From: a virus
Length of the DNA stretch: 40,282 bases
Direction: 5' to 3' (one strand)
Virus record (IMG/VR): IMGVR_UViG_3300044732_000369
Coordinates: 1 to 40,282 of that record
In this document: positions 6,794-21,838 of the stretch, one piece after another
Position numbering within the stretch: the stretch's first letter is position 1
Layout of the letters: each line of letters starts with the position of its first letter
The notes under the pieces: model-generated
Databases searched by the model: none
What the model saw: the letters and a program-made list of their open reading frames with translations, nothing else
What the model was told of the DNA's origin: nothing
Position numbers and translations under genes: made by a program

Positions 6794-6926
6794 AGTTCTT
6801 TGTCCTGACGTTCCGGTCAAAGGAATTGATGTCACGTTCTAACTTAAGTTCTTCTTTAAGTTTACTTACCTTGCGATAAGCAGTGTTTAGTTCAGAGTTA
6901 AGAAGAGAACTCTTCCACTGCTCCAT
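6783..6926 (-). CDS. Small coiled-coil protein
   Basis: A 47-aa protein from the internal ATG at 6926 (MEQWKSSLLN); a start at 6935 is also possible. It overlaps the end of the sigma-like gene in another frame and overlaps the start of the 38-aa zinc protein by 11 bases, so it fits the coupled chain. The sequence NSELNTAYRKVSKLKEELKL has heptad character and suggests a coiled coil. The longer frame back to 7022 would overlap the sigma-like gene by over 120 bases and is less likely. No function is recognised. Confidence 0.5.
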   Translation of the reverse strand: MEQWKSSLLNSELNTAYRKVSKLKEELKLERDINSFDRNVRTKNYDL

Positions 6927-7620
6927 CGTAATCATCGCTCTTAGGTGCCGGTTCTCCTGCTTTAGTTTCCGCTTCGTTACCATCTGATTCATCCTCATCT
7001 TTGAATGGTGGAAATCCACCAAGGTGTCTTACCATTTTGTTTAGTGCTCGGTTAGCCTGCATCGCTGCTGCTTTTGATGAAGGCTTTTCTGGTAATGCTT
7101 GTTCATGTAGGTCCTGTGAGGTTACTTCCTCACCGTAGAACAAGAACACAAGGTTCTGTTCCTTTTCATCTAACATACCAAAGGCTCTACGAATGTCAGC
7201 AACGTGTGCCATCCAGTCGTCAGACTGTTCAAGAGACTTGGTTGACCTTCCGGTAGTGGACAATGCGTTCTCTACCTTCTGCCAATTGTCGGATAAGATA
7301 GCAGGGATCATAGCCTTGACAAACTCCTTGCGGTACCAGAACACATCCTCTATGCTGTAGCCTTCTTTGTGTGCCTTTTCTCTGACGCACATATCGTAGG
7401 CAGCATTACGCAATGATCTAGCAAACAGTTTATCTGAATCCTTGACATCTTCTTTTAACCACTCTTTAGTTTTTACTGGATGTTCAATGAACCATAGCCA
7501 CAGGTGTTGCTCTAGGTCTTGTCTCTCGACCATCGGATACTTGCGACAATACTCGGATGCAATTTGAACAACCATACTTCTATAAGTTTCGATAACTTCA
7601 TAGTTTAGTTTACCATTCAT
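6898..7620 (-). CDS. Sigma-factor-like DNA-binding protein
   Basis: A 240-aa protein. I chose the ATG at 7620 (MNGKLNYEVIETYRS), which overlaps the end of the upstream gene by 11 bases; the frame itself opens further upstream. The N-terminal part (YCRKYPMVERQDLEQHLWLW, then FIEHP) resembles sigma region 2 of ECF-like factors. The segment around residues 145-200 (AFGMLDEKEQNLVFLFYGEE, then a helix-turn-helix and ANRALNKMVRHLGG) resembles region 4. Proteins of this layout are common in actinophages and annotated as sigma-like. It is the best candidate for switching on the late promoter near 19.88 kb, which has a good -10 but no recognisable -35. The acidic Ser/Asp-rich tail (about 40 residues) is probably disordered. 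Confidence 0.65.
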   Translation of the reverse strand: MNGKLNYEVIETYRSMVVQIASEYCRKYPMVERQDLEQHLWLWFIEHPVKTKEWLKEDVKDSDKLFARSLRNAAYDMCVREKAHKEGYSIEDVFWYRKEFVKAMIPAILSDNWQKVENALSTTGRSTKSLEQSDDWMAHVADIRRAFGMLDEKEQNLVFLFYGEEVTSQDLHEQALPEKPSSKAAAMQANRALNKMVRHLGGFPPFKDEDESDGNEAETKAGEPAPKSDDYDGAVEEFSS

Positions 7621-8368
7621 ACAATTCACCCTCAACAACAAAGGATCTGCCGTTGATCGGGACAACTACTGGAGTAACATTGCCTCTACGAATGTAGAGC
7701 ATAGTGAATGCTTGTTGCCAGTTAGCCGAACCTGTGTTCAGGTAAGACGCTTGGCTAAGATCCATAAGGTGTCCGACTTCAACTCCGTAGAGACGGTTGT
7801 GAATCTTCCCGTTGTATCCTTGGTGTTCGTGTTGAATACCCGCTCGATGTGTATGCCCACAGACAACCGAAGCCCCAATCTTGCGAGCCAAAGATAAAGC
7901 CGTGCCACCTGCTTGACGTGAGATGTTGCCTTCATCTCCATGCGCCAGTACCCATCCTGGAGTAAACTGCCAGATACTATCGTGATAGGTAATTTCGTTC
8001 TCACGATAATTGAGTAACTTGGAGTACTCCAGGTCCCGCAAACTGGCGAGTGCTGGTGCGTACTTCTTAACATAGTGTTCGACCCGATCACCGTGGTTGC
8101 TCCTCATTGTATGGAATGGCTTGTCTCCAAGTTGTTCCTTGAATTCAAGCATAATCTTTGCAGTCTTATCAAGGTTCTTCTGAAGAGTACCTGCGTACTC
8201 ACCAGCCGTACCCTTGTTCCAACGTGATGGTTCCGGACTATCAGACTCATCACCTACACAGTACAGTTCGTCAGGTTCGTACTCACCAACAAAGTTCTGT
8301 AATGCCCGTACCGCACGTGGATCGTGGTATGGGATTTGCATATCAGGTATTACAATAACGCGTTTCAC
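7610..8368 (-). CDS. Calcineurin-like metallophosphoesterase
   Basis: A 252-aa protein starting with GTG at 8368, sharing GTGA with the upstream stop. All motifs of the two-metal phosphoesterase fold are seen: PDMQ (Asp9), VGDESD (Asp39), SNHGDR (Asn90, His91), LAHGDEG (His142) and CGHTHR (His171, His173). These enzymes cut phosphodiesters or phosphomonoesters. In phages they may trim nucleic-acid ends or remove cyclic-nucleotide signals. The setting, next to the DUF1599 protein and primase, hints at nucleic-acid or nucleotide metabolism. The substrate is not predictable from sequence. Confidence 0.88.
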   Translation of the reverse strand: MKRVIVIPDMQIPYHDPRAVRALQNFVGEYEPDELYCVGDESDSPEPSRWNKGTAGEYAGTLQKNLDKTAKIMLEFKEQLGDKPFHTMRSNHGDRVEHYVKKYAPALASLRDLEYSKLLNYRENEITYHDSIWQFTPGWVLAHGDEGNISRQAGGTALSLARKIGASVVCGHTHRAGIQHEHQGYNGKIHNRLYGVEVGHLMDLSQASYLNTGSANWQQAFTMLYIRRGNVTPVVVPINGRSFVVEGELYEW

Positions 8369-12508: not shown

Positions 12509-12569
12509 TTATATATTTAATTATAATTATAATCATATATTATTATATATATAATTATATATATAAATA
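12509..12569. other. AT-only tract in intergenic gap, possible unwinding element
   Basis: Sixty-one bases contain only one C and no G, with many TATAAT-like and self-complementary TATATA runs. The tract fills most of the gap between 12469 and 12600, which holds no further gene. It may be a DNA-unwinding element, a promoter cluster for the replication genes to the left, or both. No iterons are seen beside it. Confidence 0.45.
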
Positions 12570-13275: not shown

Positions 13276-13851
13276 CTAGAAGTGGAAGTCAACCACGATT
13301 AACCATTGTTGTTCTGGATAAACCCTACGTCTTACCTCAAAGTTATTAAGGCTAGCCGTTGGCATAAACCAACCGTTGTAACCGTGTACCTCTCTATGTA
13401 TTTCCTGTTCTGCTTCGGTTAACGATCTGTTAACAATGTCGAAGACACCACTGTCACAAGTCCATTGATCTCGGTAGATCTTTAATAGATCATCAAGCAT
13501 CCACAATTGATTTTGTACTGCCTTGTTTGGATTACGAACATCTAAGTTATCCAATGATATGTCCAGTTCTTTCATACCTTTTTGGTGTGTCTCGAAGTAA
13601 GTGTACCGTCTTTCTAACGATTGTATAACAATATCATCAAACCTTGCTACATTTTTTGCATAGTTCAAGCCGTCAAGTGGACACACTTGGTTGCGCCACC
13701 TGCCTGCTAGGGTAGTACCACCGAAAGCACCACCAAAATAATCCCACCAAGTGGGGTTGACCTCACCATAAATGTTAAGGAACTTACTTGTATTTTCCCT
13801 AGCCTCTTGCAAGTCCTTGCCCTCAGTCAAGAGTATCTGATAAGTATGCAC
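13276..13851 (-). CDS. Hypothetical protein with Trp/Gly-rich N-terminal motif
   Basis: A 191-aa protein starting GTG at 13851, with GGAG seven bases upstream, overlapping the WhiB gene end by 29 bases. Residues about 30-60 read NPTWWDYFGGAFGGTTLAGR followed by WRNQVCPLDG, which recalls a W-D-x-F-x-x-G-G-R-W pattern in other actinophage hypothetical proteins. The middle is helical. There is no signal peptide or membrane span. The function is unknown. Confidence 0.6.
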   Translation of the reverse strand: MHTYQILLTEGKDLQEARENTSKFLNIYGEVNPTWWDYFGGAFGGTTLAGRWRNQVCPLDGLNYAKNVARFDDIVIQSLERRYTYFETHQKGMKELDISLDNLDVRNPNKAVQNQLWMLDDLLKIYRDQWTCDSGVFDIVNRSLTEAEQEIHREVHGYNGWFMPTASLNNFEVRRRVYPEQQWLIVVDFHF

Positions 13852-14200
13852 TACGTATCTCCTGTTCTATTCTAATCATTTCTACTTGCTTGTCCAGTAA
13901 TTCGCTGAAGTTTGTTACCGGTATGTCGCGCATAATACGCTCAGACCTGCGTTCAGTAGCGGTCATACCACCCCAGAACCCATACTCCTCATTGGTAATA
14001 GCCCACTCACGACACACCTGCACCTCCGGACAGGTAAGACATACCCTACGTAGGTAAGCGTGTTGCTTTGGTGCAGTAGAGATGTAACTCTCCCACCTAG
14101 TATCTGTGTCGTGGTTCATAGATTCTGTAACGACATAATCGTCATAGAATAAATCTGAATCTAACCCCTTACAGTTTGCATTCTCAAAGTCAGGCAGCAT
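13823..14200 (-). CDS. WhiB-family Fe-S transcription regulator
   Basis: A 125-aa protein starting ATG 14200 (TGATG with the upstream stop, GGAGG before it); a TTG at 14203 is possible. The four cluster cysteines are Cys10 (NANCKG), Cys54 and Cys57 (CLTC), and Cys63 (CREW). The turn GFWGG (74-78) is followed by the basic patch TERRSERIMRD. This is the complete WhiB/Wbl signature, found only in actinobacteria and their phages. Phage WhiB proteins such as mycobacteriophage TM4 WhiBTM4 can act on host Wbl regulons and cause superinfection exclusion. Here it may redirect host sigma factor activity. A helical C-terminal extension of about 30 residues is unusual. Confidence 0.93.
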   Translation of the reverse strand: MLPDFENANCKGLDSDLFYDDYVVTESMNHDTDTRWESYISTAPKQHAYLRRVCLTCPEVQVCREWAITNEEYGFWGGMTATERRSERIMRDIPVTNFSELLDKQVEMIRIEQEIRSAYLSDTLD

Positions 14201-14454
14201 CAATCCTCCTCGCCCTTGACATAGTCAATCACAACATCAGCAACTAGGTCAAGTATCAGGCTGTAACACTTGGCTCTGATCTCCTCGACAAGTTCAACCC
14301 ATTGCTCTTCGCTAAGGGCGTAACCATTCTGCTCCATCCAAGGATCAATCAGACCCTCGGCATCTTCCTTAGTATAGATGAATGCGTAAACATCATCTGA
14401 CATATCAACTTGGCGCAGTATGTCTAGACTGTGCATCAACTCATTAACTTTCAC
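14200..14454 (-). CDS. Hypothetical acidic helical protein
   Basis: An 84-aa protein with GTG start at 14454 and GAGGAG seven bases upstream, overlapping the upstream gene by 11 bases. It is strongly acidic and mostly helical (MHSLDILRQVDMSDDVYAFI, EEQWVELVEEIRAKCYSLIL, then VADVVIDYVKGEED). It lies immediately before and coupled to WhiB, so it could be a partner. No family is recognised. Confidence 0.55.
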   Translation of the reverse strand: MKVNELMHSLDILRQVDMSDDVYAFIYTKEDAEGLIDPWMEQNGYALSEEQWVELVEEIRAKCYSLILDLVADVVIDYVKGEED

Positions 14455-14638
14455 GGCATAACTCCTCTAGTTCATCATTAATTTCTATGTCTTTTGCAAA
14501 GGCATACTCGAAATATTTATCTCCGAGTATACCCAATAGTTCATACACTTCATCAGCAGATAGGCTAAGCCTAACACCTTGAAGTGTCAGTAACCAACCG
14601 TCCTTCCGGACTTCACTCTTGACTAGGCTAGTCAACAT
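14444..14638 (-). CDS. Hypothetical small protein
   Basis: A 64-aa protein. I chose the ATG at 14638 because it shares TGATG with the GATase stop; the frame upstream lies inside the GATase gene. The sequence MLTSLVKSEVRKDGWLLTLQ, then GVRLSLSADEVYELLGILG, suggests a short beta-hairpin plus helices. The C-terminus is acidic. The function is unknown. Confidence 0.55.
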   Translation of the reverse strand: MLTSLVKSEVRKDGWLLTLQGVRLSLSADEVYELLGILGDKYFEYAFAKDIEINDELEELCRES

Positions 14639-15462
14639 CAGTACTCCATTCCATTGTAGTTGTGCTGTGCCACAGTAGGATTGTAGCACAGGCAAGCGAC
14701 AGCGTGATCGTAACACTCAAGGCAAGAGTTACATACGGTACATACACCGTCATACAATCCTTCCTCTGTAACCTTACTCATACATACATAGCAGGTATAG
14801 TCAGCCTGTTCCAACTCTGCGGTTAGTGCCTTGCGATCTGCATCTAGTAGATCCTCGCTAGACCATAGCCCACGTGAGTAGTAACCCGAACCATAGAACG
14901 TGTACGAGTGCTTGTAACTAGAGTTAGACCACCATACATCCTTGTCCCACGTACCGAGATCCTCGTTGACAATGTACACAGAGTCACGCAACTCTGGTGC
15001 AGTAGTTAGGATAGCCAACTTACTACCGGCAGCCCAACCCTCTAACCTCTTGAATGAATCCTTGTCGTCAAGGGATTCGACACCTAGGTTAGGTAAGATA
15101 TCCTCTGCAAAGATGCGCGTGTCAGAACGCCGGTCACCCTGCTTGGGGTGGATAGGTAGCATACCGTTGTGACCAAGGATAATGTCCTTGCGACCACCTA
15201 CCCTGAATGGGTGAGCGTTCTCGATAATGCTATCTCCGTGCGTTGTGATACGAGCGTGATACATAGCAACAAAGTCAGTACCTGCACCCTCGAGTGCATC
15301 AAAGAACTTGTCGATAGTTTTCTGTGCATTCATACCACGACTCGTAATGATACGGTCGCCGTAGTGAATGGCATAGCCGAACCCGTCAGGGTTATTGTTG
15401 CTTGCATTAACAATGCTGTTGTAGTCAGGAACCTGACCCATTGTTACCATTAACAGACACAC
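14638..15462 (-). CDS. Class-II glutamine amidotransferase (Ntn hydrolase) with zinc-ribbon tail
   Basis: A 274-aa protein. The start GTG is followed by Cys2 (MCLLMV), the N-terminal nucleophile exposed after Met removal. NNPDGFGYA (23-31), MYHARITTHG (about 67-76) and LGHNGML (about 97-103) match the glutamine-binding and oxyanion elements of class-II amidotransferases. The C-terminal 70 residues add CxxC pairs (CYVC, CTVCNSCLEC), probably a zinc ribbon. The gene follows the amidoligase, with one GATC palindrome between them. The known pairing suggests GATase releases ammonia, or removes or transfers glutamyl groups, in step with the amidoligase. Confidence 0.8.
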   Translation of the reverse strand: MCLLMVTMGQVPDYNSIVNASNNNPDGFGYAIHYGDRIITSRGMNAQKTIDKFFDALEGAGTDFVAMYHARITTHGDSIIENAHPFRVGGRKDIILGHNGMLPIHPKQGDRRSDTRIFAEDILPNLGVESLDDKDSFKRLEGWAAGSKLAILTTAPELRDSVYIVNEDLGTWDKDVWWSNSSYKHSYTFYGSGYYSRGLWSSEDLLDADRKALTAELEQADYTCYVCMSKVTEEGLYDGVCTVCNSCLECYDHAVACLCYNPTVAQHNYNGMEY

Positions 15463-15484
15463 TTTAGTTTCTCCTTTTCTTGGT

Positions 15485-15500
15485 GATCATAACTATGATC
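15485..15500. promoter_or_regulatory. GATC palindrome operator, copy 1
   Basis: The core GATCATA-AC-TATGATC, flanked by T on the left and ACT on the right, overlaps the amidoligase stop codon and lies 23 bases before the GATase start. It is one of seven copies. Confidence 0.75.
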
Positions 15501-16725
15501 ACTCTGTGTTTTCATCTGGTGTTATTTGAAAGTCTGGCAAGTATTGTACCAGATCCGGATACTTACCTTGCTTGCGTACCCAAGAGGCAAACTCCTCAGG
15601 TCGTAGCATTACGCTAGCATTAGCACCGCTTCGTATGTCACGTGTGTACTCAACCGAAGCGTGGCAGAATTGAATGGCACTACGGACGCGCTCTACCTTG
15701 AGCGAACCCTTGAACATTCTAACCTCTACCGTGTGTGTATTCTGCAAGTTGACAGCGTTGTACCTATCGCCACCTCTAGCAGAACTGTGACGGCGTTTGA
15801 TAGTAAGCACGTTATCTATCTTAGCACCCTCATTAACGATACCATAGTGAGAGTTTCGACCAGCAATGTGGCGACACAGATTCTCATTACGGTTGATCAG
15901 ATAGGTGAACGCGAGCAAGTGAGTACGGTCAGTAAACGCTCGCCTATCTATGTGTACGTGTAGTCCGCAAGTACCGGCATTCCACGATCTGAACCCTGCA
16001 TCACGCAACTTGTCAAGCGTACCCCAATCGACGTGATCTTGGAAATACTCAAGCGTTGCAGGGTGAGTGACTATCTCGAAACCAAAGTTAAGTGATGAGT
16101 CTTCCTTGAGATACACAAAGTCACCCCAAGAATCTTTCATAGTTTCAGCACCCGAAGAATAGTCACCGCTAGCAGCCTCAACCTCTAACTCCATACCAAA
16201 ATACAGATGCTTGTCAGATGATCCGTGAAATACTGGCGTTGGTTTGTAACTGTAGTTGTGTACAAACTCAGAGTCAGGGTGACACATCTCGTCGTGCCAC
16301 TCATACTGATCACACATTGAACACCAGTTCGCCACTCTACCGATACAGCCATCACAGTAACAACTGTCACCACCACCAACATACCTAATGTCGTCAGTAG
16401 AAAAGATGCCATCACATCTCTCACACTCACGATAGTTCTCTGTGCAATCACCACAGTATTCACCGAGAGTATAGATACCACCGATCTCATTGTCTAAATG
16501 GTAGTCACCACAGTCAGCGCACTTGGTAGTGCAGGTGTCACAGGCATAGACATCTTCGTACGTAAACTCGCGAGTCGTGTAGTTCCAATGTCCTTTCTGT
16601 GTCTTGTAATGCCGTTCGTTATCGGCATCATAATCAAACGCATCACCACAAGAGTAACACGTTATCTCAACAATAACTTTGACAGACTCGTTATCACCAA
16701 TAACAGAGTCAATGATCTCAGTCAC
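15499..16725 (-). CDS. Amidoligase (GCS/COOH-NH2 ligase-like) with N-terminal zinc ribbons
   Basis: A 408-aa protein with GTG start at 16725 and AGGAG upstream. Residues about 20-150 hold many CxxC pairs (CYSC, CDTC, CADC, CGDC, CERC, CDGC, CSMC), a string of zinc ribbons. The catalytic part has FGMELEVE (176-183, metal-binding Glu residues), EDSS-x4-FEIVTHP (about 208-222), CGLHVHID (253-260) and a late VEVRMF strand. This is the amidoligase_2 pattern of the glutamine-synthetase/GCS fold. The family forms amide or peptide bonds using ATP, often beside a GATase as here. The target may be a protein side chain or peptidoglycan. The two palindromes around the gene suggest tight control. Confidence 0.82.
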   Translation of the reverse strand: MTEIIDSVIGDNESVKVIVEITCYSCGDAFDYDADNERHYKTQKGHWNYTTREFTYEDVYACDTCTTKCADCGDYHLDNEIGGIYTLGEYCGDCTENYRECERCDGIFSTDDIRYVGGGDSCYCDGCIGRVANWCSMCDQYEWHDEMCHPDSEFVHNYSYKPTPVFHGSSDKHLYFGMELEVEAASGDYSSGAETMKDSWGDFVYLKEDSSLNFGFEIVTHPATLEYFQDHVDWGTLDKLRDAGFRSWNAGTCGLHVHIDRRAFTDRTHLLAFTYLINRNENLCRHIAGRNSHYGIVNEGAKIDNVLTIKRRHSSARGGDRYNAVNLQNTHTVEVRMFKGSLKVERVRSAIQFCHASVEYTRDIRSGANASVMLRPEEFASWVRKQGKYPDLVQYLPDFQITPDENTE

Positions 16726-16740
16726 CGTTATCTCCTAACT

Positions 16741-16756
16741 GATCATAGTTATGATC
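16741..16756. promoter_or_regulatory. GATC palindrome operator, copy 2
   Basis: The core GATCATA-GT-TATGATC followed by ACT lies 15 bases before the amidoligase start and about 33 bases downstream of the likely transcription start, so a bound protein would block elongation (stoperator-like). The leader just before it can form GTTGGT-N13-ACCAAC. Confidence 0.75.
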
Positions 16757-16796
16757 ACTCGGTAAGTTGGTAAGCACCTTGCCCACCAACAAATCT

Positions 16797-16826
16797 ATAT
16801 TACCACACAGGTACATAGTCTGTCAA
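16797..16826 (-). promoter_or_regulatory. Early promoter P-left-2
   Basis: On the minus strand -35 TTGACA (16826-16821) and -10 TAATAT (16802-16797) are separated by 18 bases. The -35 overlaps the stop codon of the 35-aa gene. Over 34 bases, 29 match the promoter at 18205-18234, including the spacer CTATGTACCT. It drives amidoligase. Confidence 0.75.
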
Positions 16827-17171: not shown

Positions 17172-17328
17172 CTTTCCCCCTGTCCTGAAAATACTGCATA
17201 GCGGTATCATTCATCACATCTATCAACTCTTCCCATTCTTCTTCAGTTTTAATTAGACCCAACTTGTAGAGATCAGTAGCATACCAGCCGATAGCGTGAC
17301 CTTCGTGCCACTCGCTAGACATAAGCAT
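17164..17328 (-). CDS. 54-aa hypothetical protein
   Basis: The protein starts MLMSSEWHEGHAIGWYATDL and ends FQDRGKDV. It is acidic and helical, with EEEWEELIDVMND. The start lies inside the end of the upstream zinc-motif gene and the stop overlaps the next start by 8 bases, so it fits the coupled chain. No function is recognised. Confidence 0.65.
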   Translation of the reverse strand: MLMSSEWHEGHAIGWYATDLYKLGLIKTEEEWEELIDVMNDTAMQYFQDRGKDV

Positions 17329-17485
17329 ACCTCATCTCTTCTTCACACTTCTCCGAGCATACATACACTTCGTGGTAGTGGTCAAGCATTACGGGTATGT
17401 CGTGTTGCACAGACATAGGTTCTCTACACAGGAAGCACCACGCTTCTACGAAGCGATCATACTTATGATCATCTAATACAGTCAC
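17315..17485 (-). CDS. 56-aa zinc-motif protein
   Basis: The GTG start shares GTGA with the upstream stop. WCFLCREP and VCSEKCEEE give two CxC-type pairs (CxxC and CxxxC) 22 residues apart, with a His-rich middle (HDIPVMLDHYHEV); this looks like a treble-clef or ribbon zinc site. Codons 5-10 (the segment DDHKYD) are the GATC palindrome copy 3, so operator and coding sequence coincide. Confidence 0.7.
   Translation of the reverse strand: MTVLDDHKYDRFVEAWCFLCREPMSVQHDIPVMLDHYHEVYVCSEKCEEEMRYAYV
17455..17470. promoter_or_regulatory. GATC palindrome operator, copy 3 (inside a coding start)
   Basis: The core GATCATA-CT-TATGATC lies in codons 5-10 of the 56-aa gene. The right flank is AT rather than ACT, the only copy to depart from that flank. 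Confidence 0.7.
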
Positions 17486-17712
17486 TTGATACTCCTTAGG
17501 AAAGCGAACGAGCCACCATTATTGACAGCCTTTAACTGTGTTCTGAGAGAATCCACTGCTGTACCACGCAGGATTTTCTTTTGATCCTCCTCCGGTAGCG
17601 TGTTAAAGAGATGCACAAGTGGGTGACTCTTCACTAAGACAAAGGTACACTCCACCTCGAATGTAACTTTAGTTATCTGATCATACTTATGATCACTTGT
17701 TGGCTTAGCCAT
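17482..17712 (-). CDS. Hypothetical 76-aa protein
   Basis: The ATG at 17712 (MAKPTSDHKYDQITKV) overlaps the upstream stop by 8 bases. A beta-strand-rich start (VTFEVECTFVLVKSHPLVHL) is followed by helices (EEDQKKILRGTAVDSLRTQL). Codons 7-12 contain palindrome copy 4 and give the peptide DHKYD, also found in the next gene. No family is recognised. Confidence 0.6.
   Translation of the reverse strand: MAKPTSDHKYDQITKVTFEVECTFVLVKSHPLVHLFNTLPEEDQKKILRGTAVDSLRTQLKAVNNGGSFAFLRSIK
17679..17694. promoter_or_regulatory. GATC palindrome operator, copy 4 (inside a coding start)
   Basis: The core GATCATA-CT-TATGATC followed by ACT lies within the first dozen codons of the 76-aa gene. Confidence 0.72.
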
Positions 17713-17863
17713 TGCTATTACCTTTCTCCTTTTGTAGTTCCCACGAAACTTGCAGAATCTGGCGCACATAGTCCTCGCACTCACGATTCAGGCGCACCAC
17801 ACGCCACACTAGACCCACGATTACCATTACTAATAGCAGGTCGAACCCGTTAATTGTCTGCAT
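17705..17863 (-). CDS. 52-aa single-span membrane protein
   Basis: The ATG at 17863 shares TAATG with the upstream stop, and GAGGAG lies before it. FDLLLVMVIVGLVWRVV is one membrane helix; the rest is a charged helix (LNRECEDYVRQILQVSWELQ). It overlaps the next gene by 8 bases. The topology suggests a cytosolic C-terminal helix. An early membrane protein could act in exclusion or in host takeover; the role is not known. Confidence 0.65.
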   Translation of the reverse strand: MQTINGFDLLLVMVIVGLVWRVVRLNRECEDYVRQILQVSWELQKEKGNSNG

Positions 17864-18126
17864 TACTTCTCCTCTAGTAGGTGAGCCACAGCCCGTAGTG
17901 TAGCCTGTGCCTGTGCGACAGCAGACAGTAGTCTGCCCTCGGATACAGCATCAAGGATAGCCTGAGCCTGCTTGCGCTCAAAGTCCACCCGATCCTGATA
18001 GGAACTGAAAGACTCACGATAAGCCATACGCTCATCAAAGGTCATACCAGTTTCAATGTCTAAGTGCAATGCCTTGACAGCACCGAACTTACCTGCATCT
18101 TCTTGCTCTAACCAAAAGTCAGCCAT
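17863..18126 (-). CDS. Hypothetical helical protein, first early gene
   Basis: An 87-aa protein with ATG start and AAAGG upstream. It is almost entirely helical with many Ala, Glu and Arg residues (DRVDFERKQAQAILDAVSEG, LLSAVAQAQATLRAVAHLL). It is the first gene of the leftward operon, after promoter 18205-18234 and palindrome copy 5. Immediate-early genes at this position often interfere with host functions. No family is recognised. Confidence 0.6.
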   Translation of the reverse strand: MADFWLEQEDAGKFGAVKALHLDIETGMTFDERMAYRESFSSYQDRVDFERKQAQAILDAVSEGRLLSAVAQAQATLRAVAHLLEEK

Positions 18127-18141
18127 TTAACTAACCTTTCC

Positions 18142-18157
18142 GATCATAATTATGATC
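18142..18157. promoter_or_regulatory. GATC palindrome operator, copy 5
   Basis: The core GATCATA-AT-TATGATC followed by AC lies 16 bases before the first early gene and about 40 bases after the likely start of transcription, the same layout as copy 2. Confidence 0.75.
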
Positions 18158-18204
18158 ACCTCGCGGTGACCACCAGATTGTGTCTTTCACAACCTGATGT
18201 ATCC

Positions 18205-18234
18205 ATCTTACCATATAGGTACATAGCCTGTCAA
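18205..18234 (-). promoter_or_regulatory. Early promoter P-left-1
   Basis: On the minus strand -35 TTGACA (18234-18229) and -10 TAAGAT (18210-18205) are separated by 18 bases. The spacer and -10 region are nearly identical to the promoter at 16797-16826. It is the main leftward early promoter. Confidence 0.75.
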
Positions 18235-18430: not shown

Positions 18431-18455
18431 GTTGCCTAAGTGCAACTAGGTTGCT

Positions 18456-18471
18456 GATCATAATTATGATC
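18456..18471. promoter_or_regulatory. GATC palindrome operator, copy 6
   Basis: With flanks, TGATCATAATTATGATCA is a perfect 18-bp palindrome, followed by CT. It sits inside the GTTGC palindrome array. Confidence 0.75.
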
Positions 18472-18673
18472 ACTTAGTGATCGTTGCTTATTGGTAACGC
18501 CTAGCCTTACGCCTAGCCCTAACCCGTAGGCGTTGCGTATTGGTAACGGGTAGCGCGTATCTAATCGGGTGATCGTGTTGCTAATGGGTAACGGTTACGC
18601 TTAGCGCGTAAGTCTGGCGCGTGTTGCGTATCTGTAACGCCTAGCCTTGTTGCGTACCTGCATCAAGTTGCCT

Positions 18674-18689
18674 GATCATAATTATGATC
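18674..18689. promoter_or_regulatory. GATC palindrome operator, copy 7
   Basis: This is the same perfect 18-bp palindrome as copy 6, again preceded by GTTGC and followed by CT. Confidence 0.75.
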
Positions 18690-18751
18690 ACTAAGAATTG
18701 TTGCGATCTTGCAACGGGTTAAGGCTCAAGAGTTGCCGATACGGTTAGTTA

Positions 18752-18765
18752 GTTGAACTTTCAAC
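18752..18765. promoter_or_regulatory. GTTGA-N4-TCAAC inverted repeat, copy A
   Basis: GTTGAACTTTCAAC is a near-perfect 14-bp palindrome, related to but distinct from the GTTGC family. A second copy lies at 18894. Confidence 0.5.
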
Positions 18766-18865
18766 AAGTTGGGCTGGCGTTGCCGGTATCTGGGGCAAAT
18801 AGGGGCAGAATCCGACACGCCCAAAAACCCTTGCAAATAAAGGGAAAAAAAAGTTTTCTCAAATG

Positions 18866-18895
18866 TTGCCCATTTTGGCTTTTCTCGTGTATGGT
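18866..18895 (+). promoter_or_regulatory. Weak candidate promoter for the HTH gene
   Basis: TTGCCC (18866-18871) and TATGGT (18890-18895) are separated by 18 bases and sit upstream of the gene at 18941. Both match the consensus only in part. The palindrome at 18894 overlaps the -10. Confidence 0.35.
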
Positions 18896-18907
18896 TGAGG
18901 TATCAAC
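18894..18907. promoter_or_regulatory. GTTGA-N4-TCAAC inverted repeat, copy B (candidate auto-operator)
   Basis: GTTGAGGTATCAAC overlaps the candidate -10 of the HTH gene, and a further GTTGA half-site follows at 18917. Binding here would repress the gene, so autoregulation is plausible. Confidence 0.5.
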
Positions 18908-18940
18908 TCAAACGGGGTTGATAGCAAAGGAAAAAACGAA

Positions 18941-19465
18941 ATGAAAAACGAAAAGGAAAAGGTAGGCGCGAAAGTTGCGCTTGTTGCTGAGGTCAAGAAA
19001 ATTGTTGCCAAAGAGCAACAGACGGTTGAATACATTGCAGGCATTCTCAAAGGGCTTGTAGATGCTGGACATTCACACCGATCCATTCAAGCAGAATGGG
19101 CAAAGCAGGCAGGGCGCAAGATCGCCATTGCCACGATCTCGCACCACGTCGCTATTGCTGACTCAAAGAGTGGCGCAAACGCTCAAGCCCTGCTCAAGGA
19201 ATTGCAGGGCAACAAGTTGAGTGTTGAGCAGGTTCGCACCTTGACACCTGCAAAGGCAAAGGAACTCGAACTAATGACCGCGCCAGTTCGCAAGGTTCGC
19301 ACACCTAAGCCAAAGGCAAAGGCAACCAGCGCACCTGCACCTGCTGAGCAGATCAACGCGATCAACAAGGCAATTCAGACAGGCAAGACATTGAGCGCAC
19401 AAGATCGCGCCAATGCGATCAAGGCAACTCAAGCCCTGCTTGAAATGCTAATCGCTACAAGTTAG
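18941..19465 (+). CDS. ParB/KorB-like HTH DNA-binding protein (monocistronic)
   Basis: A 174-aa basic protein with an ATG start. Residues 1-40 are a charged helix. Residues about 46-73 (SHRSIQAEWAKQAGRKIAIA, then TISHHVAIAD) look like a helix-turn-helix. LLKELQGNKLSVEQVRTLTP (about 84-103) resembles the ParB/KorB segment after its HTH. A KPKAKATSAPAPA linker leads to a short helical domain (130-174), perhaps for dimerisation. The ParB N-terminal CTPase motifs are absent, and no ParA is encoded. The gene points away from the early operon, has its own terminator and is flanked on both sides by 16-bp palindromes, so it probably binds them as repressor, partition or origin protein. Its codons are richer in GC than the late genes. 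Confidence 0.65.
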   Translation: MKNEKEKVGAKVALVAEVKKIVAKEQQTVEYIAGILKGLVDAGHSHRSIQAEWAKQAGRKIAIATISHHVAIADSKSGANAQALLKELQGNKLSVEQVRTLTPAKAKELELMTAPVRKVRTPKPKAKATSAPAPAEQINAINKAIQTGKTLSAQDRANAIKATQALLEMLIATS

Positions 19466-19479
19466 CAACAAATAGGAAT

Positions 19480-19506
19480 CCCCCACCTTCGGGTGGGGGT
19501 TTTCTT
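19480..19506 (+). terminator. Intrinsic terminator with UUCG loop
   Basis: CCCCCACC-TTCG-GGTGGGGG is a perfect 8-bp stem with the very stable UUCG tetraloop, followed by TTTTCTT. It ends the single-gene transcript of the HTH protein. Confidence 0.92.
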
Positions 19507-19530
19507 ATGCCCAAAAATAGTTGGCGAATA

Positions 19531-19667
19531 GTTGCGAATCGGTAACACCAGATAGTCAAGCATTAACATTCATTCGTTGTTTATTAACACCACCACCCCC
19601 CTCGGTGGGGTAGGGGGGGAGTGTTGCGTTTACGCAACGGGCAGGGCAGGTGTTGCCTTTAGGCAAC
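19531..19667. repeat. Array of GTTGC-N6-GYAAC palindromes, right arm
   Basis: Copies lie at 19531 (GTTGC-GAATCG-GTAAC), 19623 (GTTGCGT-TT-ACGCAAC, perfect) and 19652 (GTTGCCT-TT-AGGCAAC, perfect). The last two are 29 bases apart. Between them and the terminator lies a C-rich/G-rich run (about 19588-19620) that can pair with itself. No gene is seen. Confidence 0.8.
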
Positions 19668-19945
19668 GTATGACCCACCGGTTATTAAGGTCGGTGGAAT
19701 GGTATATACATTACTCTAACATATTATTTTCTGCTGTGTTTCCGTACAGTTACTGGGTTTTATTAATGTGACGTAAATTACTTTATAAATTTTTGGTAAC
19801 AAATCGTTACAGGTGCTTTATAACTGGGTTAGTATATATGTAAGGTTATTTTATGCGAACCCTGTTGGTTCGCTAGTATATAATACACCGCTTGGTGCGG
19901 TGTTGTATGTGTGTTGTATTTGAGTGTTGTTTAGGATGTGTTTCG
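19668..19945 (+). promoter_or_regulatory. Late control region with candidate late promoter
   Basis: An AT-rich gap before the terminase. It holds a CCACCG-N11-CGGTGG hairpin (about 19676), the inverse repeat GTAAC-N5-GTTAC (19796-19810), two TGGGTT direct repeats, the hairpin GCGAACC-N5-GGTTCGC, a perfect TATAAT at 19879-19884 and the hairpin ACACCGC-N5-GCGGTGT (19885-19903) just after it. No TTGACA-like -35 lies at normal spacing, so an activator or the phage sigma-like factor may be needed. Confidence 0.55.
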
Positions 19946-21838
19946 GTGGCTGCTAGGACAGGTGCATTGCACCATACGGTAATTAAGCAGAATGAGGACC
20001 AAGCGAAATTTCTGGCTTCTGTAGCGTCAGGTGTATCAGAACACGCTGCGCTGGGTATAGTAGGTCGTAAACCTGCTGCCTTAAAGACGTGGCTTCGGGA
20101 CCCTAAGTTTGCTATGAAACTTGAGGATGCGCGGGGCGAGTCTAATGCCCTTATGACCGAGACTCTGGTTAATGGCAAGAAGATTGACTTCGCCACCTTC
20201 TCCAAAGAGTTCCTGGGATCTGAGGTGTTTCCGCACCATCAGTCTTGGATCGACGTTTTAGAGGGGCGCGAACCGTCCTGGCTCCACCCGTCTATGACTT
20301 TTGAGCCAAGCAATCGCCGCCGTATGTTAATCAACGTACCGCCCGAACATGCTAAGTCTACGGTTTTAACGGTTGGCTACGCCACCTACCGTATTGCTAT
20401 GGATCCTAACATCCGCATCGTTATCGTTTCCCAAACCCAGACCCGTGCCAAGGAATTCTTGTATTCCATCAAACAACGTCTGACAGAAGACAACTGGGCT
20501 AAACTCCAAGGTGTCTATGGACCAGCCGGTGGCTGGAAGGAAACCGCAGATCAATGGACTGCCGACCGTATCTACTTGGAACGTTCATCTGGCGAGAAGG
20601 ACCCAACCGTCCAAGCCATTGGTATGGGGCAACAGATTTACGGTACTCGCGCAGACCTGATTATTTTGGACGACGTGGTCACTACTACCAACGCCCACGA
20701 ATGGGAGAAGCAACTCAACTGGTTGCAAAAGATGGTTATTACCCGTGTCGGTGCAACCGGTATGCTCATTATTGCAGGGACGCGAGTTTCCTCTGTAGAC
20801 CTCTACAAGGAGGTCCGTAACCCAGATAACTGGTCTGGTGACAAATCCCCCTTTACTTATTTGGCTATGCCAGCAGTTCTAGAGTTCGCTGATAAAAAAG
20901 AAAACTGGAAGACGCTCTGGCCCATCTCCGATCGTGTATGGGATGGCGCGGATCCAGATAACGAAGATGACTCAGAACTTTTAGTACAGGACGAAAATGG
21001 ATACTACCCTAAATGGGATGGAAAACGCCTCTTCCAACGACGCAGTGAGGTTAACCCATCTACATGGGCTCTCGTATACCAGCAGCAAGATGTCGAAGAA
21101 GACGCGATCTTTCCCCCTGCGCTTGTTAACTCCTGTGTTAACCGGATGCGCAAGCCTGGTCCTCTCAATATGGGCGCGCCTGGACATCCATCGGGAGGAC
21201 AATGGGTAACCATCCTGGGCTTTGACCCTGCTATGGCAGGTCATGCTGCTATGGTTGCTTATGCCATAGAGCGTGAGTCCGGGGAGCGTATGGTTCTAGA
21301 CGTGCATAACATGGCTGATCCAACCCCTCAAAAGATTAGAGCACTCATGGAAGACTGGGTGCTTAAGTTTAGACCTATAGAATTACGCGTTGAAATCAAC
21401 GCACACCAGAAAGCCTATTCCCTAGACGAGGATCTGCGGATGTGGATGGCTAATCGTGGTGTACAGATGAGAGAACACTTCACCGGTAAGAATAAGTGGG
21501 ATGTTAGTTTCGGTGTGGCTTCCATGTCGAATCTCTTCGGTACAATGCGCGATGGCAAATTCATTGGGGGTAATCTAATTACCCTACCGGATGCAAGTAA
21601 CGAGCATATCAAGGCTCTTATAAACCAGTTAATTACCTGGAAACCAGATACCAAGAACAAGACTGACGTAGTTATGGCTCTTTGGTTCTGTGAGATCAGG
21701 GCTAAGGAACTGGTTCAAAGCAGCATGAATCGAGTTCATCACATGAACTCAAGGTATGCAACTAGAAAAAATATGTCCCAGCGAGCAGTTATTGATTTAG
21801 ATGAACTTGCTGCAGATCAACAAGTAATTTATATTTAG
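19946..21838 (+). CDS. terL: Terminase large subunit with N-terminal HTH
   Basis: A 631-aa packaging motor. I chose GTG 19946 (MAARTGALHHTVIKQ) with AGGA upstream; the frame opens at 19892 but those 18 residues are Cys/Val-rich and unlikely. Residues about 12-65 (QAKFLASVASGVSEHAALGI, then VGRKPAALKTWLRDP) resemble the HTH of small terminase subunits. The ATPase has PPEHAKST (Walker A, about 131-138) and DLIILDDV (Walker B, about 236-243). The RNase-H-like nuclease begins near GFDPAMAG (about 425), with later acidic residues (VEINAHQ, KTDVVMAL). No separate small terminase gene is seen; the N-terminal domain may replace it. Confidence 0.93.
   Translation: MAARTGALHHTVIKQNEDQAKFLASVASGVSEHAALGIVGRKPAALKTWLRDPKFAMKLEDARGESNALMTETLVNGKKIDFATFSKEFLGSEVFPHHQSWIDVLEGREPSWLHPSMTFEPSNRRRMLINVPPEHAKSTVLTVGYATYRIAMDPNIRIVIVSQTQTRAKEFLYSIKQRLTEDNWAKLQGVYGPAGGWKETADQWTADRIYLERSSGEKDPTVQAIGMGQQIYGTRADLIILDDVVTTTNAHEWEKQLNWLQKMVITRVGATGMLIIAGTRVSSVDLYKEVRNPDNWSGDKSPFTYLAMPAVLEFADKKENWKTLWPISDRVWDGADPDNEDDSELLVQDENGYYPKWDGKRLFQRRSEVNPSTWALVYQQQDVEEDAIFPPALVNSCVNRMRKPGPLNMGAPGHPSGGQWVTILGFDPAMAGHAAMVAYAIERESGERMVLDVHNMADPTPQKIRALMEDWVLKFRPIELRVEINAHQKAYSLDEDLRMWMANRGVQMREHFTGKNKWDVSFGVASMSNLFGTMRDGKFIGGNLITLPDASNEHIKALINQLITWKPDTKNKTDVVMALWFCEIRAKELVQSSMNRVHHMNSRYATRKNMSQRAVIDLDELAADQQVIYI

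Follow-up and report, generated by a model that had tools for sequence, protein, structure and literature searches.

The window is the whole stretch of DNA analysed here, 40,282 nucleotides of the IMG/VR virus record IMGVR_UViG_3300044732_000369. An ORF with an ATG start at 18941-19465 on its plus strand, already described in an earlier note, encodes a protein of 174 aa, the HTH protein. Its gene is flanked by leftward early genes (first start codon at 18126) and by the rightward TerL ORF (19892-21838; phrog_38 match, E 6.5e-62). The early genes diverge from the HTH gene, whose orientation opposite to the early operon had been recognised before, as had the UUCG terminator, a TTCG-loop hairpin at 19480-19499. 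The N-terminal stretch of the TerL ORF (19892-20230, GVSEHAALGIVGRKPAALKTWLRD) resembles by eye the HTH of small terminases, and no separate small terminase gene was recognised. TerL probably starts at a GTG near 19940.

The function of the HTH gene is pointed to by an array of the 18-bp palindrome TGATCATAATTATGATCA. Seven copies with at most two mismatches are found between 15484 and 18690, where 0.02 would be expected by chance; an eighth match at 12518, with three mismatches in an AT-rich stretch, is left out of this count. The palindromes, considered as putative operators, and the other features of the locus are:

15484-15501, unstranded: operator 1, TGATCATAACTATGATCA, 21 bp upstream of start codon 15462 (minus strand)
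16740-16757, unstranded: operator 2, 14 bp before the amidoligase start codon (16725, minus strand), downstream of the promoter match 16826-16797
16797-16826, minus strand: second leftward promoter match, TTGACA-18-TAATAT
17454-17471, unstranded: operator 3, within the first codons of the small gene 17315-17485 (minus strand)
17678-17695, unstranded: operator 4, within the first codons of the gene ending at 17482 (minus strand)
18141-18158, unstranded: operator 5, 14 bp upstream of start codon 18126 (minus strand) of the first early gene, downstream of the promoter match 18234-18205
18205-18234, minus strand: leftward early promoter match, TTGACA-18-TAAGAT; a stretch of 34 nt recurs almost unchanged at 16793-16826
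18455-18472, unstranded: operator 6, perfect palindrome in the non-coding divergent region
18673-18690, unstranded: operator 7, perfect palindrome in the same non-coding divergent region; the HTH gene follows 250 bp further on
18941-19465, plus strand: HTH protein gene, encoding a proposed early-operon/immunity repressor (ORF; covaries with the palindrome type)
18941-19270, plus strand: putative DNA-binding half, residues 1-110, the part apparently exchanged between types (pLDDT; dS between window and L004)
19127-19162, plus strand: predicted recognition helix, residues 63-74 (model helix; alignments)
19283-19336, plus strand: predicted disordered Lys/Pro/Ala linker, residues 115-132 (pLDDT below 50)
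19340-19459, plus strand: predicted helical hairpin at the C-terminus (residues 134-173), conserved between types A and B (model; DNA identity)
19480-19499, plus strand: terminator hairpin with TTCG loop, 3' of the HTH gene

Most palindromes sit at early gene starts (five of seven at gene starts of the leftward operon). The promoter matches 18234-18205 and 16826-16797 are the best two of the region, and the operators at 18141 and 16740 lie just downstream of them. Assuming a transcription start 7 bp after the -10 box, these operators would occupy about +41 to +58 and +34 to +51, respectively. This predicted position past the promoters suggests that elongation would be blocked and not promoter binding. 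The amidoligase gene (15499-16725; PF12224, E 1.9e-12) adjoins a glutamine amidotransferase-like gene (14638-15462; PF13230, below the cut-off). Both are located behind operators and are possibly involved in modification of the host envelope.

A second motif, GTTGC-N6-GYAAC, forms an array of about 12 copies in 1.2 kb at 18431-19667 (at most one mismatch, matches on both strands merged), and only four single matches are scattered outside it. The number of exact copies near the HTH gene (10, 9, 9, 10, 8 and 8 in six phages) is similar whatever the operator type. This constancy indicates that the motif belongs to another factor. It is possible that the array represents origin iterons or perhaps the sites of another regulator.

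Close relatives of the window were taken from viral_contigs, and six independent phages could be compared. They fall into three operator types: type A with GATCATA half-sites (window, L002 and L003), type B with GATTATA half-sites (L004 and L005; palindrome TGATTATAATTATAATCA in L004) and type C with GATTGTA half-sites (L020). L020 carries TGATTGTATTTACAATCA in five corresponding places, and its protein is 31% identical. Own-type half-sites account for 63 of 68 (window 14/14, L002 10/12, L003 6/8, L004 12/12, L005 11/12, L020 10/10); these 68 leave out a degenerate L020 site, a remnant half-site of L004 and the broken sites of L002 and L020, none of which fitted the pattern. The five half-sites of another type (two each in L002 and L003, one in L005) derive from one B site in L002 (2706), one B site in L003 (58) and one hybrid site in L005 (3157). 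The B site of L002 does not differ from L004 in any of the 30 bases shown, a finding suggestive of recent recombination. Such foreign-type or hybrid operators are possible traces of recombination or of an ongoing switch. An exact scan of all viral_contigs detected the type A palindrome in four stretches, three of them in phages with the HTH gene. At 12518-12569, the window contains AT-rich overlapping palindromes, one of which differs from the type B operator by at most one base even though the window itself belongs to type A. A role of the palindromes as restriction sites (GATC) was ruled out because types B and C have no GATC.

The window and L004 allow the closest view of a type change. At the six sites intact in both, all 12 type-defining positions are changed, compared to only four of 96 other positions (P 6.5e-13), and all six sites retained in L004 have changed symmetrically to TGATTATAATTATAATCA. 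The site at 17454 has kept its unusual centre while both halves are changed, which argues that the sites were altered in place, in both halves together, and not imported with long flanks. This site is coding: The encoded DDHKYDR became DDYKYNR in L004, i.e., the palindrome was preserved at the price of two residues. In the ungapped flanks of the six sites (±15 bp), 44 of 180 positions differ, a count probably inflated by two non-coding sites and by shifts, so that the within-site and backbone comparisons are preferred. L004 matches the window in most of its backbone (97.9% in the TerL region, 99.6% in gene 17863-18126) better than it matches L005 (90.8% and 90.4%). Despite this window-like backbone, L004 groups with L005 in its sites and in the HTH core (78.4% identity with L005 vs. 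64.0% with the window). Residues 81-110 run the other way (57.8% and 68.6%, respectively).

Along the 12 kb shared by the window and L004, identity drops over contiguous bins only at 18500-19250 (75, 66 and 68%), a range that corresponds to the leader and the DNA-binding half of the HTH gene; the L004 contig spans only about 12 kb, and a second covarying gene could sit elsewhere. The low values of bins 13000 and 14000 result from an unaligned head and an insertion. This insertion of about 160 bp in L004 near 14200 was considered as a covarying gene and rejected, as an insertion is found at this position in L002, too, a phage of type A. Between the window and L004, dS amounts to 0.45-1.24 in residues 1-110, whereas residues 111-174 display a dN of 0.02 and a dS of 0.14. 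Furthermore, DNA identity in the C-terminal hairpin is 91-95% among A and B types. This pattern would fit an exchange of the DNA-binding half with its junction in the linker. Rapid positive selection on the HTH was rejected in favour of the exchange of an old allele, as dN is not above dS and residues 1-110 have a high dS. In the recognition helix, type A has I/V63 together with H68 and H69 (I/V-ATxxHH), while type B has Q63 together with Q68 and Y69 (Q-xTxSQY). At the type-defining position, His may correspond to C:G and Gln to T:A. Types B and C have much of the recognition helix in common (QxTxSQY) although their palindromes differ.

An AlphaFold2 model of the HTH protein was built with six sequences (mean pLDDT 78; 10-residue means of 84-95 over residues 11-110). 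It comprises helices at 29-41, 46-57, 63-74, 81-89, 95-99 and 103-108 as well as a helical hairpin, 134-147/153-173, with low to middling confidence (pLDDT blocks of 59-73 in residues 131-170). The predicted model recovers the order proposed in the earlier note: The HTH is followed by LLKELQGNKLSVEQVRTL (residues 84-101), by a Lys/Pro/Ala linker and finally by a short C-terminal domain. The hairpin is the probable dimerisation part, a guess because of its low pLDDT. In a Foldseek search against PDB, the nine best matches of the model are all Spo0J/ParB or KorB, albeit weak (E 0.24-1.8, probability 0.38-0.82); a small terminase, which the earlier note had considered as a contrary outcome, is not the best match. 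In VIA-align, Spo0J 1vz0_C (Z 7.2, 93 residues, rmsd 4.1) is tied with the unrelated Raf1 6kkm_G (Z 7.3, 86 residues, rmsd 2.8), followed by ParB 6t1f_D (Z 6.9, 93 residues, rmsd 6.0), Spo0J 4umk_C (Z 6.5, 97 residues, rmsd 4.2) and KorB 1r71_A (Z 5.4, 82 residues, rmsd 4.3). For the predicted core of residues 1-110, the best likeness is to the ParB/KorB DNA-binding domain; it is weak and suggestive only. The Foldseek search against viral models yielded nothing significant, and a PDB sequence search with the alignment gave no credible match (best E 0.21).

The suggestion of a ParB/KorB-like HTH protein lacking its CTPase part is still tenable. The N-terminal CTP-binding domain is absent: ParB_N (PF02195) was found in none of the 11 records (window and 10 relatives) in a search that was positive in 10 of 14 control genomes, and only about 28 residues precede the HTH bundle. 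The likeness in fold, with the E-values and the Raf1 tie given above, is no more than suggestive. Because neither a CTPase domain nor a ParA was found, the protein is not filed as ParB; by its proposed function, it is classed as a variant of multi-operator immunity repressors. Scans of Pfam (best E 0.12) and PHROG (best E 0.042) revealed no convincing match, and tblastn gave none against phages or 72,556 plasmids. The L020 and L022 counterparts did not match phages either. A literature search yielded no paper on a repressor of these phages, and none is mentioned in the examined part of PMC10202952.

Ungapped 16-mer palindromes were examined at 53 of 80 TerL loci, with L020 treated separately. 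A family of at least three copies is present at 16 of these 53 loci, which are not all independent: L017 is a contig almost identical to the window, and L035 and L056 share their sites. Where TerL is at least 75% identical and at least 1.3 kb upstream are available, 15 of 16 loci have a family, the exception being L023 with two copies. Below 75%, with the same upstream length, this applies to one of 27 loci (L054). Ten loci have too little upstream sequence. The palindromes of other loci differ (CTAACAGTACTGTTAG, CTGACGGTACCGTCAG, CACTTTACTTAAAGTG, GTATCC-N4-GGATAC). At about the same place, relatives have an HTH-type gene of 180-218 aa in reverse orientation. HTH-type genes with their own palindrome families upstream of TerL were observed in L022, L024, L025, L028, L030, L034, L035, L045, L054 and L056; the one of L024 has a LacI HTH match above the Pfam cut-off (29.3 vs. 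27 bits). Profile comparisons of the HTH protein revealed no homology over the core with the L022 group, none with L054 and a borderline match with L035 (99 columns, probability 42%). Therefore, these genes are not claimed to be one family. The L022 model has a similar helix order, but in structure searches it matches generic helical bundles.

The window maps as a complete circle: It begins with the same 127 bases with which it ends, and a 39.5-kb relative spans the join. Five of the 11 records searched, including the window, are 39.5-40.3 kb long. Neither integrase (PF00589) nor resolvase (PF00239) nor ParA-type proteins (PF13614, PF01656) were detected in any of the 11 records, and two scans of genome_contigs found no TerL relatives. 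A phage sigma factor (6901-7665, phrog_354) and a WhiB-like regulator (13826-14203, minus strand, PF02467) are encoded as in Planktophila phages. WhiB gene, sigma factor and the Planktophila phages point to an actinobacterial host. The only isolates of the group seen here are the Planktophila phages LanE43AprE7 and F5 (TerL 54%).

Taken together, it is likely from these comparisons that the HTH protein is a dimeric, sequence-specific repressor of the leftward early operon that acts at the palindromes and defines the immunity type. In such a system, the ParB/KorB-like HTH of each subunit would recognise one half of the 18-bp palindrome (TGATCATA), and the dimer would be held together by the conserved C-terminal hairpin, connected via the flexible linker. 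The repressor would sit in leaders and gene starts, about 35-58 bp into the predicted transcripts and away from the -35/-10 boxes, and block the transcribing polymerase like a stoperator roadblock. Looping to operators 6 and 7 of the divergent region might help repression. A cell holding one type would repress only incoming phages of its own type. That protein and operators switch together suggests that the protein would set the immunity type. Points against this reading are the five half-sites of another type, the small number of independent phages (three A, two B, one C) and the recognition helix largely shared by B and C. The earlier alternative between a reduced ParB and a new repressor is thereby shifted to the latter, as operator and DNA-binding half switch together in relatives. 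The remark that the gene stands as those of lysogeny repressors often do is borne out only in part, as neither an integrase nor a partition gene was found in the complete genome. A role in lysogeny is weakened because integrase, resolvase and ParA were not found. Hence, type switching points to immunity, yet without any recognised means of staying in the cell.

A possible, if rather less probable, explanation is a temporal switch, by which a strictly lytic phage without prophage or carried state turns off its early genes during infection. It shares binding and repression with the immunity repressor and differs in purpose; the confidences in the two overlap. The complete genome (127-bp exact terminal repeat) without integrase, resolvase and ParA, the lack of TerL relatives in both scans of genome_contigs and the isolated lytic cousins E7 and F5 are in line with it. 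By contrast, repeated type change at all sites fits selection for immunity and not a pure timing device, and the lytic isolates themselves have neither palindrome array nor HTH gene (first 25 kb only in E7). Somewhat more doubtful is a far-reaching scenario, in which freshwater actinophages without integrase and ParA would have true heteroimmunity. Here, a CTPase-stripped repressor derived from ParB/KorB would act at palindromes that are re-mutated in place whenever the DNA-binding half is exchanged, and the phage would persist in an extrachromosomal carried state with the GTTGC-N6-GYAAC array as origin.

The hints at a ParB/KorB-like fold and the GTTGC-N6-GYAAC repeats between the sites would also fit a partition or plasmid-control protein of an extrachromosomal phage, with the palindromes as centromere and operator sites by an iteron origin. 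This is improbable given that a CTPase domain and ParA are missing, that the sites are located at early gene starts and that the protein is unmatched in 72,556 plasmids. A small terminase subunit recognising a packaging site is very improbable, too. The HTH gene is located only about 0.4 kb before the TerL ORF, and two distant counterparts have weak small-terminase profile matches (phrog_57; L025, E 0.0068; L030, E 0.0023). The counterpart of L024 also matches phrog_57 weakly, and that of L025 also phrog_3218. However, the HTH protein itself has no TerS profile match, its gene is separated from TerL by its own terminator, the counterparts in many relatives are oriented the other way, and seven sites over 3.2 kb at early gene starts are unlike a packaging site. 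It is likewise very improbable that the palindromes are RNA hairpins or host-protein sites and that the change in the HTH gene is coincidental. Several sites are found in leaders just before start codons, and the palindrome also folds as RNA, but two sites are outside the predicted early transcripts and Rfam gave no match. Moreover, three operator types accompany three protein types in otherwise similar genomes, and the neighbouring GTTGC-N6-GYAAC motif does not switch.

With the proposed immunity repressor, an unnamed protein gains a concrete, testable function. Three operator specificities in nearly one genome are a natural experiment on the joint change of a repressor and its dispersed sites. 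An immunity-type system in phages without a visible integration or partition gene is a puzzle, and it bears on the question whether abundant freshwater actinobacteria have carried or lysogenic phages.

Among known phages, LanE43AprE7 and F5 (OX376640, OX376641) belong to the same wider group as the window by TerL (54%), WhiB and sigma factor. Unlike the window, they lack the palindrome array and the HTH gene before TerL (F5 whole, E7 first 25 kb), and they are reported to lyse their Planktophila host (PMC10202952). The DNA-binding domain of KorB and ParB (Spo0J, Noc) may be similar in the predicted fold of residues 5-110 and in helix order, and its sites are palindromic as well, whereas the window's protein has neither a CTP-binding domain nor a ParA partner and differs in its C-terminal part. 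A second analogue is phiC31, likened by its general features and not by sequence: The repressor of this actinophage acts at many dispersed palindromes (conserved inverted repeats) near early promoters. phiC31 has a serine integrase, and its repressor is much larger than the HTH protein. The cluster A mycobacteriophages (L5, Bxb1, TipsytheTRex) share with the window many short sites in early-region gaps and at gene starts as well as a leftward early arm with a Cas4-like gene. Their repressor and stoperator motif vary together between heteroimmune relatives (PMC6550527). Their sites are asymmetric and 13-14 bp long (PMC5721134, PMC13313380) and are bound by a monomer with two domains (PMC9283540). 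The window differs in its 18-bp near-perfect palindromes, the number of sites (about seven), a different protein and the lack of a detectable integrase or ParA. By analogy, cluster A mycobacteriophage immunity appears to be the closest system in kind.
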